64,000 nt of DNA from Bacteroidota bacterium (GTDB lineage Bacteria; Bacteroidota; Bacteroidia; JAHEXY01): NCBI GenBank assembly GCA_023251875.1, contig JAHEXY010000003.1, positions 372,001 through 436,000 of the forward strand, given 5' to 3'. The position numbers and the translations under genes were made by a program. Of this stretch, positions 24,677 to 30,136 are shown one piece after another. The notes beneath the pieces were generated by a model. The model searched no databases. It had not been told where the DNA came from and was given only the letters and a program-made list of their open reading frames with translations. How positions within the stretch are numbered: the first letter of the stretch is position 1; each line of letters opens with the position of its first letter.

Positions 24677-24724
24677 ACGGTTATAATAATGTATGAAGAA
24701 ACTCTCCTATATTATTATAACCGT
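24677..24724 (+). terminator. Perfect 14-bp hairpin with T-run spanning the start codon of the next gene
   Basis: ACGGTTATAATAAT (24677-24690) and ATTATTATAACCGT (24711-24724) are fully complementary around a 20-nt loop and are followed by TTTTCTTT. This is the form of an intrinsic terminator for the thioredoxin gene, but its loop holds the ATG (24693) of the SGNH hydrolase gene and its right arm encodes part of that protein's membrane anchor. Confidence 0.75.
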
Positions 24725-25760
24725 TTTTCTTTCCCTCATCATTCTTGAAATAGGGTTCAGCCTAATTTTTTATTTTAAAGATCAATCCGTACAAGCCATA
24801 AATTTGCCTTGCACTAAAGACACGCCTTATTTGTATTATTCTTTTCTTCCCTCCAATACTGATAGAATTAGCCAAAATACAGATGGATTCCTTACCAATT
24901 CTCCAATAGAAAAAAAAGATAGTAGCATATACAGAATTGCTTTAATTGGGGGAAGCGTTGCTGAACATTTAGGAGCCGAAAAAGATTCTGCTAATCAATT
25001 TGTATTGCAAAAAGAACTAAATACTATTTTAAGAACCAATAATATTGAAATTATCGATGCCGGTACTTCGGCCTATGTTGTAGAACAAGAATTTTTACTT
25101 ATCCAGTTAATATTACAGAAATATAAACCCGATTTAATAATTGGCCTCCATGGTTATAATGATTTAAGTAGTTTTAAATTTAACCGATATGTAAATAATC
25201 AAATTCTTTTACCCCCTCTCAATTACCGCGATTTTTTAGTAATTGAACAAGGAAAACGAAACAATCAATTTATATCAAGATTTACATCTCTATTTAAAAA
25301 TACATACCGTGCTTATGATTTTGTTAAACGATATTTTACCAAACAAAATACTTATGACTATTCATCGGTAACAAACCAAACGTATGAAGCCTATTCAAAC
25401 CAATATATAACTATTATTAATGACATAAAGGATTTTAGTCAATCAAAGGGAATAAAATATTATGATTTTTTACAACCTATACGGTATTATAATAATCAAT
25501 CAGAAAATTATTTACTTAGCCATGATGAAGTAATACAAATGACAAAAATGTATCATGCCTTTGAAGAAAAACAAACTAAATTAAATTTTGCATTCTCATT
25601 AAGCCACCTATTTGATACCCATTTAAATGTTTATACAGATGATTGTCATGTAACACCTGAAGGCAATAGTATTTTAGCCAAAGCCATAGCATCACAATTA
25701 AAGAATATAATTGAAGTTGATTCTGTTTATAGAAAAAAGAAAAATTCTTTTTCTCTATAG
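24693..25760 (+). CDS. SGNH/GDSL-family hydrolase, membrane-anchored
   Basis: A 355-residue protein with an N-terminal membrane segment (residues 5-27) and an extracytoplasmic SGNH-like domain. Expected blocks are visible: block I around IALIGGSVAEHLG with the nucleophile Ser, block III in GLHGYNDLSS (Asn), and block V in DDCHVTPEGN with the Asp-x-x-His pair. The family includes esterases and O-acetylases acting on lipids, peptidoglycan or glycans. The substrate is unknown. Its ATG lies in the loop of a strong hairpin, so initiation may be limited by RNA structure. No alternative Met lies close downstream. Confidence 0.82.
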   Translation: MKKLSYIIITVFLSLIILEIGFSLIFYFKDQSVQAINLPCTKDTPYLYYSFLPSNTDRISQNTDGFLTNSPIEKKDSSIYRIALIGGSVAEHLGAEKDSANQFVLQKELNTILRTNNIEIIDAGTSAYVVEQEFLLIQLILQKYKPDLIIGLHGYNDLSSFKFNRYVNNQILLPPLNYRDFLVIEQGKRNNQFISRFTSLFKNTYRAYDFVKRYFTKQNTYDYSSVTNQTYEAYSNQYITIINDIKDFSQSKGIKYYDFLQPIRYYNNQSENYLLSHDEVIQMTKMYHAFEEKQTKLNFAFSLSHLFDTHLNVYTDDCHVTPEGNSILAKAIASQLKNIIEVDSVYRKKKNSFSL

Positions 25761-25913: not shown

Positions 25914-27371
25914 ATGTCTTCTTTTCCCCTTAATGGTACTTCAAAAGATGCTTTGCTAAATTCGATGCAGCAACTTATTAAGCATGATGCCAATTATAAA
26001 GATGGAAAAATATGGAGTTTAGTCTATTACTCAGGAGATGAACTATCAGATTTCTTACAAAAAGCCTATTGCGAACGCTGGAACGAGAGTTCTGCCAACG
26101 AAGATTTATTTCCTGCTATAGTTGAATTAGAAAAAGAAGTAATTTCTATTGCATCTCATTTACTAAATGGCAATGAAAATACCTGTGGAAATATTACATC
26201 AGGTGGTACCGAAAGTATTTTATTGGCTATTAAAACGGCTAGAGATTATGCAAGAATTACAAAACCTCATATTACACATCCTGAAATAATTTTACCTGCA
26301 ACAGCACATCCTGCTTTTTTTAAAGCAGCAAAATACTTTGATATAAAACCCATAACGGTTGTTGTAGATTCAGACTTTAGAGCTGATATTCTTGCAATTA
26401 AAAATAACATTACGTCCAATACCATTTTAGTAATGGGCTCTGCACCTAATTATCCACAAGGTGTTGTAGATCCTATTGCTGAAATAGCTCAATTGGCTCT
26501 TGAATACAATTTATGGTGCCACGTTGATGCTTGTGTGGGAGGTTTTCTTTTACCATTTGTAAAAAAAGCAGGGTTTCCAGTTCCAGATTTTGATTTTTGT
26601 GTAGAGGGTGTAACTTCTATCTCTGCTGATATTCATAAATACGGTTATGCCGCAAGGGGTGCTTCTTTAGTGCTTTATAAAAACAAAGCATTATACCAAT
26701 ACCAAGCATACAGTGCCGATGATTGGTACGGTAAAAAATATATTTCAAATACATTATTAGGCGCAAGGCCCGCAGGACCAATTGTTGCTGCATGGTCGAT
26801 ATTACAATGTTTAGGAGAAGAGGGTTATTTAAAACTGGCTAATGAAGTAATGCATACTGCTAGTAAAATTAAAAATGCTATAGCTTCAATTCCTGAACTT
26901 AAAATTTTAGGCAATCCTTCAGCATGTGTGTTGGGTATTGCTTCAGATGAATTAGATATTTATATGTTAGGAGATGAGCTCGATGTGTTGGGTTGGAATT
27001 TAGAACGTCAACAACTCCCTCCTAGCCTTCATTTGGTTATAACACCTGCACATACACAAGCTTCAGAAAAATTAATTAGTGATTTACATATTGCTGTCCA
27101 AAAACTAAGAAAAGGTAAATGGAGACAAGCACTTACATCTGCGCAAGCAAAGTTAACTTCAATGGCAATAAATATATTGCCCATGGGCTTGGTAAAAAAA
27201 TTCAACAATACTTCATCTGCAACAAAACCTCAATCAGAAAAAAAACAACGTTCAGCTCCTATGTATGGAATGATTGGAGCTGTATCAAACAGAGAAAATA
27301 TACAGGAGTTTATTATAGATTTTTTAGATGAAGTAACTACAATTAAAAAGGAAAAAAATGAACCTCGTTGA
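25914..27371 (+). CDS. S1P-lyase-like PLP-dependent enzyme (group II decarboxylase family)
   Basis: A 485-residue PLP enzyme of the pyridoxal-dependent decarboxylase family, closest in look to sphingosine-1-phosphate lyase. The phosphate-binding motif is TSGGTESILLA, the Asp contacting the PLP ring is in HVDACVGGFLLPF, and the Schiff-base Lys is K242 in SISADIHKYGYAARG. S1P lyases split phosphorylated long-chain bases into a fatty aldehyde and phosphoethanolamine; many Bacteroidota make sphingolipids, so such a substrate is plausible but not shown. The C-terminal ~50 residues are basic and low-complexity. The stop overlaps the next, paralogous gene by 14 bp. It is the first gene of a three-gene operon. 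Confidence 0.88.
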   Translation: MSSFPLNGTSKDALLNSMQQLIKHDANYKDGKIWSLVYYSGDELSDFLQKAYCERWNESSANEDLFPAIVELEKEVISIASHLLNGNENTCGNITSGGTESILLAIKTARDYARITKPHITHPEIILPATAHPAFFKAAKYFDIKPITVVVDSDFRADILAIKNNITSNTILVMGSAPNYPQGVVDPIAEIAQLALEYNLWCHVDACVGGFLLPFVKKAGFPVPDFDFCVEGVTSISADIHKYGYAARGASLVLYKNKALYQYQAYSADDWYGKKYISNTLLGARPAGPIVAAWSILQCLGEEGYLKLANEVMHTASKIKNAIASIPELKILGNPSACVLGIASDELDIYMLGDELDVLGWNLERQQLPPSLHLVITPAHTQASEKLISDLHIAVQKLRKGKWRQALTSAQAKLTSMAINILPMGLVKKFNNTSSATKPQSEKKQRSAPMYGMIGAVSNRENIQEFIIDFLDEVTTIKKEKNEPR

Positions 27372-28512
27372 GAAAGGCAAAAATTCGGCCCAAGTATTTT
27401 CTCTCTTACAACAGAAAATAGTGAGTAAAAAATCTTTTTTACCTGAAAAAACTTTTAGCGGATATTTTGCCTCACCTGAAATTGAAGATCTATTAAAAGA
27501 AACCAACAAAATGTTCTTTTGGGCAAATGCATTGAGCCCAATGTCGTTCCCGAGTTTAAAAAAATACGAATCAGAAGTAGTGGCGTTTCTTATTGATTTA
27601 ATGCAAGGTGATGAAACTGTAGTAGGAAACATGACTACAGGTAGTGATGAAAATATTTTAATGGCTTTAAAAGTTGCACGTGATTATTGCAGAGAAACAA
27701 AACCTCATATTAAAAATCCTGAGATCATTATTTCCAGAACTGCTCACCCTGCATTCTTAAAAGCAGCTCATTATTTTAACTTAAAAGTGCAAATTGTTCC
27801 TCTGGATGAAAATTACCTGCCTCATTTAAATGAATTAGAAAAACTAATTAATGATAACACCATTTTAATTGCAGCCTCAGCTCCTTCTTATGCATTAGGC
27901 ATAATTGATCCTGTTGAAAAAATGGGAGTACTAGCAGCTAAAAATAATTTACTTTTTCATGTTGATGCAAATGTTGGGGGAATGATTTTGCCTTTTCTAA
28001 AGCATCAACCATCAATACCTAAATTTGATTTCAAAGTAAAAGGTGTAAGCTCTATCTCAATTGATTTATATTATGGCATGGGACCAAAAGGTGCTGGAGT
28101 TAATTTATATAGAGATAAAATTTTACGTAAACATCAATATTTTGCATATACAGAGTATCCAGGAGGCTTATACGGCTCTCCATCACTTACAGGCTCTCGT
28201 GCAGGAGGGCCCCTAGCCGCATCATGGGCATTACTAAATTATTTAGGAAGAAAAGGATTAGAAGCTTCTATCCCAACCCTTCCGCAAAGAAGAATGAACT
28301 TGCAGGTGCTAGGAGAACCTTTAGCAAATATCTTTGCCTTTACATGCCCTAAAATAGATCAAGTTCATGAACAATTATTACAGAAAGGCTGGTATCTCGA
28401 AAAATTATCTTTCGTTTCGGCATTACGCATACACCTCTCTCCTATTCACACCCATTCTCTTGAATTATTTTTTAACGATTTAGATAACATCCTTAATGAG
28501 CAATCAAAATAA
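27358..28512 (+). CDS. S1P-lyase-like paralogue lacking the PLP lysine (probable pseudoenzyme)
   Basis: A 384-residue paralogue of the preceding protein, e.g. ARDYCRETKPHIKNPEIIIS and HVDANVGGMILPF. The Schiff-base region reads SISIDLYYGMGPKGAG: the His-Lys pair of the paralogue is replaced by a single Tyr (residues 236-240, 28063-28077). The phosphate loop is changed from SGGTES to TGSDEN. About nine residues of a helix and the C-terminal tail are missing. The frame is otherwise intact, so it looks like a maintained non-catalytic subunit. Family members are dimers with shared active sites, so a heterodimer with the upstream enzyme is possible. It overlaps both neighbours (14 and 17 bp). Confidence 0.85.
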   Translation: MNLVEKGKNSAQVFSLLQQKIVSKKSFLPEKTFSGYFASPEIEDLLKETNKMFFWANALSPMSFPSLKKYESEVVAFLIDLMQGDETVVGNMTTGSDENILMALKVARDYCRETKPHIKNPEIIISRTAHPAFLKAAHYFNLKVQIVPLDENYLPHLNELEKLINDNTILIAASAPSYALGIIDPVEKMGVLAAKNNLLFHVDANVGGMILPFLKHQPSIPKFDFKVKGVSSISIDLYYGMGPKGAGVNLYRDKILRKHQYFAYTEYPGGLYGSPSLTGSRAGGPLAASWALLNYLGRKGLEASIPTLPQRRMNLQVLGEPLANIFAFTCPKIDQVHEQLLQKGWYLEKLSFVSALRIHLSPIHTHSLELFFNDLDNILNEQSK

Positions 28513-29833
28513 ATTAAGTTTAAAAGAAAAAATAGCATACGGCTCTGGAGCATTTGGATATTCTATTTCCAATACATTGCTTCTTGTTTTTTTTAATTTT
28601 TACTTAACTGATGTTGTGGGTTTTGCTCCTGTTTATGCTACTATAATTCAGGTTTTGCGAAAAGCATGGGATGCCTTTAACGATCCCCTAATTGGCACTT
28701 TAAATGATCGTTCAAATGGGCGTTGGGGCAGAAGAAAAACCTTTATTATTGTTGGCCTTATTCCCTATGGTTTATTATTCGCCTTGCTTTGGCAAGTACC
28801 TTATTTTTCATCATCCATAGAAAATTTACTGTGGTTTATTTTTTTAGTTTTTGCTTACGATACCGCCATGACTTTGGTTTGGATACCTTACAATGCTATT
28901 ACACCCGAACTAACGCAAGATTATAATGAACGCACCAATCTCAATGGCTACCGACAAGCATTTTCTATGTTGGCCGGTTTGGTTGCAGTTGCATCTGTTG
29001 ATATATTGGCCGGATATTACTCTAATGAAAAAGAAAAATTTAGTGTTTTAGGAATTATAGCTGCCATTGCAATTGTATTACCTTTTTTAATAGTGCTATG
29101 GGGTATAAAAGAAAAACCGCATGTAGTAAATAAACAGGAAGCTCAAAAAATAGCAACTTTATTTAAAGAAACTTTTTCAAACAAAGCCTTTGTAGTAGCA
29201 GTTGCCATTTTTTTTCTTTCATGGGTATCCATTGCTATTGGCACCAGCATGGTTGCTTATTTTGTAAAATATTGGATGCATATTAAACCCATGAAAATAT
29301 TACTTGCCATTCAATTATCTGCCCTTGTTTCTATTCCATTTTTAGTAAAACTATCTGAAAAAATAGGTAAAAAACAGACCTATATTTTTGGCATTTTATT
29401 TTGGGCAGTGGTACAAATATGCATGATATTTCTCCAACCTGATCAAGAAACATTTTCTATTGTATTGGCTGCCTTAGCCGGCATTGGTGTAGGAGCTGCA
29501 CATGTAATTCCATGGGCCATGATACCGGATTGCATAGATGCAGGAGAATTACAAACAGGCCAAAGACGTGAAGGAGCTTATTACGGTGTACTTACTTTTG
29601 TAGAAAAAGTAGGGTCGGCACTTGCCTTAGGTGGAGTAGGCTTAGTATTACAATTATGCGGCTATGTTGGTGCTGCTGAACATCAATCATCCTTATCTAT
29701 TTGGGCCATTCGTATTTTAATGAGTATCGGCCCTGCCATATTTTTACTCATTTCTATTTTTGTTGCTTTTTATTATCCTTTAAGCAAACAAAAACATGAT
29801 GAGATTAGAAAGCAGTTATCTAAAGCAATTTAA
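28496..29833 (+). CDS. MFS_2 (GPH/MelB-MFSD2-type) transporter
   Basis: A 445-residue, twelve-helix carrier of the glycoside-pentoside-hexuronide (MFS_2) family. Typical features are the N-terminal LKEKIAYGSGAFGYSIS and the acidic helix-II/loop motif DPLIGTLNDRSNGRWGRR, where family members bind cations. Bacterial members mostly carry sugars with Na+ or H+. The animal relatives MFSD2A and MFSD2B carry lysolipids and sphingosine-1-phosphate. Its start overlaps the S1P-lyase-like pseudoenzyme gene by 17 bp, so a lipid-like or long-chain-base substrate is worth considering; that is inference from context only. Confidence 0.88.
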   Translation: MSNQNKLSLKEKIAYGSGAFGYSISNTLLLVFFNFYLTDVVGFAPVYATIIQVLRKAWDAFNDPLIGTLNDRSNGRWGRRKTFIIVGLIPYGLLFALLWQVPYFSSSIENLLWFIFLVFAYDTAMTLVWIPYNAITPELTQDYNERTNLNGYRQAFSMLAGLVAVASVDILAGYYSNEKEKFSVLGIIAAIAIVLPFLIVLWGIKEKPHVVNKQEAQKIATLFKETFSNKAFVVAVAIFFLSWVSIAIGTSMVAYFVKYWMHIKPMKILLAIQLSALVSIPFLVKLSEKIGKKQTYIFGILFWAVVQICMIFLQPDQETFSIVLAALAGIGVGAAHVIPWAMIPDCIDAGELQTGQRREGAYYGVLTFVEKVGSALALGGVGLVLQLCGYVGAAEHQSSLSIWAIRILMSIGPAIFLLISIFVAFYYPLSKQKHDEIRKQLSKAI

Positions 29834-30054: not shown

Positions 30055-30136
30055 GCGGATGTGGCGTAATTGGCAGCCGCACCAGACTTAGGATCTGGCG
30101 CTGAAAGGCGTGGGGGTTCGAGTCCCTTCATCCGCA
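30055..30136 (+). tRNA. tRNA-Leu (anticodon UAG)
   Basis: Acceptor arms GCGGATG (30055-30061) and CATCCGC (30129-30135) pair fully, with discriminator A at 30136. The anticodon stem CCAGA/TCTGG encloses the loop CTTAGGA, giving anticodon TAG (reads CUA). A long variable arm (CGCTGAAAGGCG) and the T-arm GGGGTTCGAGTCCC fit a class II leucine tRNA. CCA is not encoded. Confidence 0.95.

Follow-up and report, generated by a model that had tools for sequence, protein, structure and literature searches.

A lysine-bearing and a lysine-less S1P-lyase-like gene overlapping with an MFS_2 carrier gene in a Bacteroidota genome: a candidate one-site heterodimer

The described bacterial sphingosine 1-phosphate (S1P) lyases (S1PLs), such as StSPL (3MAD), Burkholderia S1PL2021 (5K1R) and Legionella LpSPL, are dimers of one kind of subunit with two like active sites. 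Each site is built from both subunits, with N126*, H129* and S353* contributed by the neighbour (PMC6148460, PMC5234717); active-site residues are numbered here after StSPL, and an asterisk marks those donated by the adjacent subunit (table in PMC6148460). The N-terminal segment of these enzymes is ‘primarily involved in dimerization’, and the two S1PLs of Burkholderia, both of them active, share 86% identity (PMC5234717). A division of labour between paralogues is represented by eukaryotic serine palmitoyltransferase (SPT), whose LCB1 subunit lacks the lysine that binds pyridoxal 5'-phosphate (PLP) and keeps other residues predicted to be catalytic, a single active site being the working hypothesis (PMC3794620). 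Here, we analyse a 64,000-nucleotide stretch of a Bacteroidota genome (assembly GCA_023251875.1, contig JAHEXY010000003.1, positions 372,001 to 436,000; the window), in which three overlapping genes encode an S1P-lyase-like enzyme (g1), a paralogue of it without the PLP lysine (g2) and a carrier of the MFS_2 family (g3). We suggest that g1 and g2 might together form a single active site.

With the bacterial S1P lyases g1 shares the fold, the PLP motif, the GGT cup, the His/Cys sandwich of the cofactor ring and the C-terminal YGM gate, and g2 shares the fold. Unlike in the one-subunit dimers, however, residue losses in this pair are split across two overlapping genes. Of the residues that act within their own subunit, g1 retains G168, T169, C276, H310 and K311, whereas in g2 the first four are replaced by Ser, Asp, Asn and Tyr and the lysine is deleted. 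The partner-donated residues show the opposite distribution when compared with 40 homologues from the class of the host genome and from Myxococcota, plus 10 of alphaproteobacterial or actinobacterial origin. In all of these (40/40 and 10/10, respectively) N126* is Asn, and it is Ser59 in g1 and Asn57 in g2, while S353*, which is Ser or Thr in all of the ~50 homologues, is Ala284 in g1 and Ser280 in g2. Among the ~50 family members compared, g1 alone has lost both. Alignments show that g2 has kept the N-terminal segment for dimerisation and that both proteins have the Arg of the dimer interface (g1 R110, g2 R108; R222 in the human enzyme, PMC6148460). Such complementary losses are the pattern expected of a one-site heterodimer, which we consider the leading explanation of the pair, with about an even chance of being correct.

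Based on this pattern, we infer a scheme that comprises heterodimerisation, a one-site mechanism, a reaction, a substrate class and a direction of transport. In this scheme g1 and g2 would pair as an obligate S1P-lyase-family heterodimer and share one composite active site. g1 would bind PLP on Lys242, using its own His241, Asp205, Cys207, His132 and GGT cup, and g2 would fold against it and contribute in trans the equivalents of Asn126* and Ser353*, the PLP site borne by g2 itself being presumably dead. The enzyme would split a 2-amino-3-hydroxy amphiphile with an acidic head group between C2 and C3 by retro-aldol cleavage, or act on it in some similar PLP reaction, and the co-translated g3 would carry this substrate, or less likely a product, across the inner membrane.

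The nearest analogy is to LCB1 and LCB2, as in both cases a lysine-bearing and a lysine-less paralogue would share the labour of one active site, to which the lysine-less subunit adds further catalytic residues, and the features by which such a pair can be recognised in sequence (paralogues, one of them lysine-less, with complementary losses in cis and in trans) are all present in g1 and g2. On the other hand, SPT is a eukaryotic, membrane-bound α-oxoamine synthase that catalyses a condensation, whereas g1 and g2 belong to a cleaving-type family, and the LCB1/LCB2 complex is physically established, while that of g1 and g2 is one that we infer. If it is real, the pair would offer a clean test of how a PLP homodimer evolves into a one-site heterodimer, the step that eukaryotic SPT presumably took. 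No lysine-less S1PL partner was found described in the open-licence literature searched.

An earlier note on this DNA had described three overlapping genes for a complete S1P-lyase-like PLP enzyme, a paralogue lacking the PLP lysine and a MelB/MFSD2-type carrier, and this description holds throughout: the open reading frame coordinates, the plus strand and the overlaps of 14 and 17 bp are exactly as claimed (Table 1), and each of the three products is as it was described. Translational coupling is predicted at both overlaps. The best match of g1 among solved structures is StSPL (3mad; E 4.7e-110, 372 bits), followed by human S1P lyase at E 3.2e-99, with the decarboxylase MfnA far behind (6e-31, 111 bits), so that the best homologues are not the amino-acid decarboxylases which the earlier note had considered as a contrary outcome. 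The lysine-centred cofactor site of g1 is complete in the alignment (K311, H310, D274, C276, H201, G168 and T169 are all kept). The substrate-phosphate site, by contrast, is altered: Y105 is kept, N126* is changed to Ser, H129* to Asn and K317 to Arg. In the refined alignment Asn is also the commonest residue of the class homologues at the H129* position, and A103 is variable among the substrate-phosphate residues. Retro-aldol cleavage of S1P by g1 is a putative activity.

Searches with g2 also retrieved S1P lyases as best matches (2.9e-61). The family motif SADxHKYG reads SIDLY-YG in g2, with the Schiff-base lysine, present in all homologues compared, deleted. Of 45 nearly invariant columns in an alignment of 42 family sequences, g2 retains 33 and has lost 12, including GGT (to GSD), the Cys (to Asn), the His (to Tyr) and the lysine. 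It is 101 amino acids (aa) shorter than g1, to which it is 35-37% identical, and it lacks the C-terminal extension with the substrate-gate Tyr482 and has a shortened inter-domain helix. Its synonymous-codon score (0.223) falls within the range of the intact neighbouring genes (0.155-0.282), random synonymous codons giving -0.017 +/- 0.038 (z ~6). An AlphaFold model of g2 has a mean pLDDT of 88.7 and a pTM of 0.89, and Foldseek places it closest to S1P lyases, including 4q6r, 8ayf and 3mad (TM 0.90-0.92 overall; TMq 0.91-0.92 for these three). As the frame is open, the codon usage native and the fold confidently predicted, g2 is a maintained gene and not a decaying one.

The host genome comprises 4.8 Mb in 23 contigs at 100% completeness. 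No other member of its family or order is among the genomes compared, which were searched as overlapping sets of 395 genomes of the class, 36 of a near order and 369 at the level of the phylum. S1PL-like genes occur in 55 of the 395 class genomes, whole ones encoding ~420-540 aa, and the lysine was present in every one of the 40 homologues checked by alignment (39 of the class, one of Myxococcota). In none of the 395 was a further copy without the lysine found next to the first one. In the order of the nearest MurA relatives, 8 of 36 genomes carry an S1PL and none the g1-g2 pair; the pair was likewise absent from the singleton order of genome G046, and the phylum-level set gave only S1PLs that were already known, and no pair. 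A scan of 84,980 GTDB r220 representatives by short exact peptide patterns revealed no close relative of g2, the only hit being an S1PL of Myxococcales whose lysine is intact. In the family tree both g1 and g2 are on long branches, that of g2 being the longest end branch (1.89), and a sister relationship of the two, though unsupported, is compatible with the AU test (p-AU 0.205).

g3 exceeds the cut-offs of both PF13347 MFS_2 (306 bits, cut-off 27) and TIGR00792 GPH (278 bits, cut-off 231), and its best PDB match, MFSD2A (1.7e-43), is ahead of MelB (5.1e-27). In common with MFSD2A, MFSD2B and MelB, it keeps the Asp pair of the cation site (WDAFND) and the helix-XI Lys. Asp19 and Asp124 of MelB, both with roles in sugar binding (PMC8329300), align to Ser and Trp in g3, and MelB-like galactoside transport is rejected on this ground. 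As the cation-site residues are common to nearly all MFS_2 members analysed, whatever their substrate (PMC8329300), the resemblance to MFSD2A does not fix the substrate of g3, and transport of a lysolipid or S1P is a putative function. A search of the class sample at 1e-50 gave one relative, with 32% identity and no S1PL in its short flanks, and the nearest relative seen anywhere, an MFS gene, is carried by a plasmid of Pseudanabaena (35%, with nothing found above this value). The lack of a close relative in the class, together with this plasmid match, suggests that g3 may have been acquired horizontally.

The association of such a carrier with an S1PL-like lyase is not confined to this window. 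Nonomuraea gerenzanensis has an independent operon TetR - MFS_2 - S1PL-like (NZ_LT559118.1, ~335.8-339.2 kb), the last two genes of which overlap by GTGA (4 bp). It resembles g1-g3 in combining an MFS_2 carrier and an S1PL-like lyase in overlapping genes, but its lyase is single, with the lysine intact and no lysine-less partner seen, and its carrier is 24% identical to g3. Lysine-bearing S1PL-like genes are also adjoined, on the same strand, by LysE-type translocators (four loci, L047, L049, L054 and L055, in two families), DUF819 permeases (two loci of one family, L050 and L056, and the Myxococcales metagenome-assembled genome (MAG) L007) and an MFS_1 carrier (L076). Many other S1PL-like loci have no adjoining transporter, and none was recognisable beside the Embleya ones. 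The coupling of this lyase family with transporters is thus recurrent and involves non-homologous carriers, with MFS_2 twice, which supports a functional link of g3 without indicating its substrate. The link between carrier and lyase proposed in the earlier note is moderately strengthened in this way, while the substrate it named is not identified by these neighbours. The repeated occurrence of S1PL-like genes beside unrelated transporter families points to unexplored transport-coupled substrates in bacteria. In the Myxococcales MAG (L007:4968-9415) the S1PL-like gene is followed by those for the DUF819 permease and for a protein that has an Ntn-hydrolase domain of the AAT type, possibly an amide-hydrolase/permease/lyase set.

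As to a sphingolipid context, only two α-oxoamine-synthase-family genes were found in the genome. One is a 2-amino-3-ketobutyrate CoA ligase, with 556 bits to KBL. The other is BioF/SphA-like, with 152 bits to Bacteroidota SPT and 143 bits to cysteate acyltransferase (CFAT), and neither gene has SPT or CFAT as its closest match. The latter gene (G000:C11:776978-778060; L005:1207-2391, minus strand) lies beside UbiA-like and TPR genes, and its product is closest to SphA/BioF-type structures; it may have a non-canonical role. S1PLs without SPT are known in Legionella and Burkholderia, their reported targets being sphingolipids of the host (PMC6148460, PMC5234717), and scavenging is therefore compatible with the absence of SPT. 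However, alphaproteobacterial family members adjoin amino-acid ATP-binding cassette (ABC) transporters and M20 peptidases, and specificity for S1P therefore seems not to be a trait of the whole family. In several genomes of f44, a family of the class (L039, L048, L052, L074, L075), a CFAT-like gene lies upstream of the S1PL-like one at a distance of a few genes, that of L052 scoring 515 bits to 28eh. As capnine is the sulfonate counterpart of a sphingoid-base phosphate, the S1PL-like enzymes of f44 might act as capnine lyases and release taurine.

Several points weigh against a one-site heterodimer of g1 and g2. The complementarity rests on only two informative trans positions, and the chance of its arising, a hypergeometric estimate over 13 functional sites, is ~0.04 for g1 alone and ~0.01 jointly with g2, values of modest weight. 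The Ser353 equivalent of the Burkholderia enzyme contacts PLP through its backbone N (PMC5234717), therefore an Ala at this position could be harmless. The change of K317 to Arg, within g1's own subunit, is left unexplained by complementation, and Arg occurs at this position in two alphaproteobacterial homologues as well. The pair is found in no other genome searched, and the host has no canonical SPT or CFAT. These changes in g1, N126 to Ser and K317 to Arg, would have another cause, namely a different and possibly non-lipid substrate, if g1 were a self-sufficient homodimeric lyase or decarboxylase, with g2 as a separate pseudoenzyme of a regulatory, ligand-binding or chaperone-like kind. This alternative, which we regard as fairly unlikely, agrees with the retention of every within-subunit cofactor contact in g1, with the recurrence of the Arg in Alphaproteobacteria and with the variety of substrates suggested by the transporter and peptidase neighbours there. 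However, N126 and Ser/Thr353 are kept even in the divergent alphaproteobacterial homologues, the independent loss of exactly these two partner-donated residues is not what would be expected of a homodimer, and the overlap of g1 and g2 suggests matched synthesis. That g2 is instead a tandem duplicate that has been silenced and is turning into a pseudogene, its complementarity being coincidental, seems very unlikely: its long branch, its lost invariant positions, its reduced length and the restriction of the pair to one genome would all fit, but neutral sequence as divergent as g2 should be expected to carry stops, and its 384-codon frame is intact, with native codon bias, most of the nearly invariant positions, a confidently predicted fold and both overlapping junctions preserved.

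The assignment to sphingolipids is weaker than the heterodimer idea and is one of several possibilities. A full sphingolipid system, in which sphingoid-base phosphates of the host or diet enter by an MFSD2B-like carrier and are split into phosphoethanolamine and a fatty aldehyde, is quite unlikely in our judgement, even though the best solved relatives of g1 are proven S1P lyases, g3 is nearer to MFSD2A than to MelB, and Legionella and Burkholderia offer the precedent of S1PL without SPT. Against it stand the missing SPT and CFAT, the changed N126 and K317 of the phosphate site, the genomic contexts of the family and the near-universal cation site of MFS_2, so that the likeness to MFSD2A does not settle the substrate. 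It is also unlikely, if slightly less so, that the locus is a bacterial retro-aldol counterpart of LCB1/LCB2 with an MFSD2-like carrier, serving as a dedicated route for the uptake and cleavage of exogenous sphingoid-base-like phosphates or sulfonates by a host that makes no sphingolipids itself. Of what the earlier note had put forward, the catalytic/pseudo-catalytic heterodimer is supported by the complementary losses of g1 and g2 and weakened by the occurrence of the pair in a single genome. Its sphingoid-base-phosphate system retains the S1P lyases as nearest relatives of g1 and loses ground to the amino-acid-transporter contexts and to the missing SPT and CFAT. The two checks to which it pointed, conservation of the triplet and a serine palmitoyltransferase gene elsewhere, gave negative results, as neither pair nor triplet was present in any other genome searched and no canonical SPT was found in this one.

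Table 1. Positions in the window of the three-gene cluster, its diagnostic codons and the gene upstream
Feature	Position	Strand	Basis
g1: S1P-lyase-family fold-type-I PLP enzyme, 485 aa, predicted catalytic subunit	25914..27371	+	
g1 Lys242 codon (PLP Schiff-base lysine; equivalent of StSPL Lys311)	26637..26639	+	alignment
g1/g2 coding overlap, 14 bp	27358..27371	+	
g2: S1P-lyase-fold paralogue without PLP lysine, 384 aa, predicted non-catalytic partner	27358..28512	+	
g2 Tyr238 codon, at the His site of the PLP motif (next Lys, present in all homologues, deleted)	28069..28071	+	alignment
g2/g3 coding overlap, 17 bp	28496..28512	+	
g3: MFS_2 / GPH-type carrier, 445 aa	28496..29833	+	profile and structure matches
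GDSL/SGNH hydrolase-like gene	24693..25760	+	N-terminal membrane anchor judged by eye

The GDSL/SGNH hydrolase-like gene precedes g1 on the same strand by 153 bp and is possibly part of the same transcription unit; its product could release a substrate outside the cell. Downstream of g3, a tRNA is located at 30055.

Further S1PL-like loci show features of their own. In one clade (L059, L063, L066, L068, L069, L077) an FGGY-family kinase, possibly the substrate kinase of that clade's lyase, is directly adjacent. The S1PL-like gene at L072:5522-6798 (G056) is broken up into at least two short frames, the probable cause being a frameshift or an assembly error in that genome. On a plasmid of Rhizobium sp. 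CCGE532 (L127), tpa (hypotaurine-pyruvate aminotransferase) lies ~5.5 kb from the S1PL-like gene, with an IS630 element and other genes in between.

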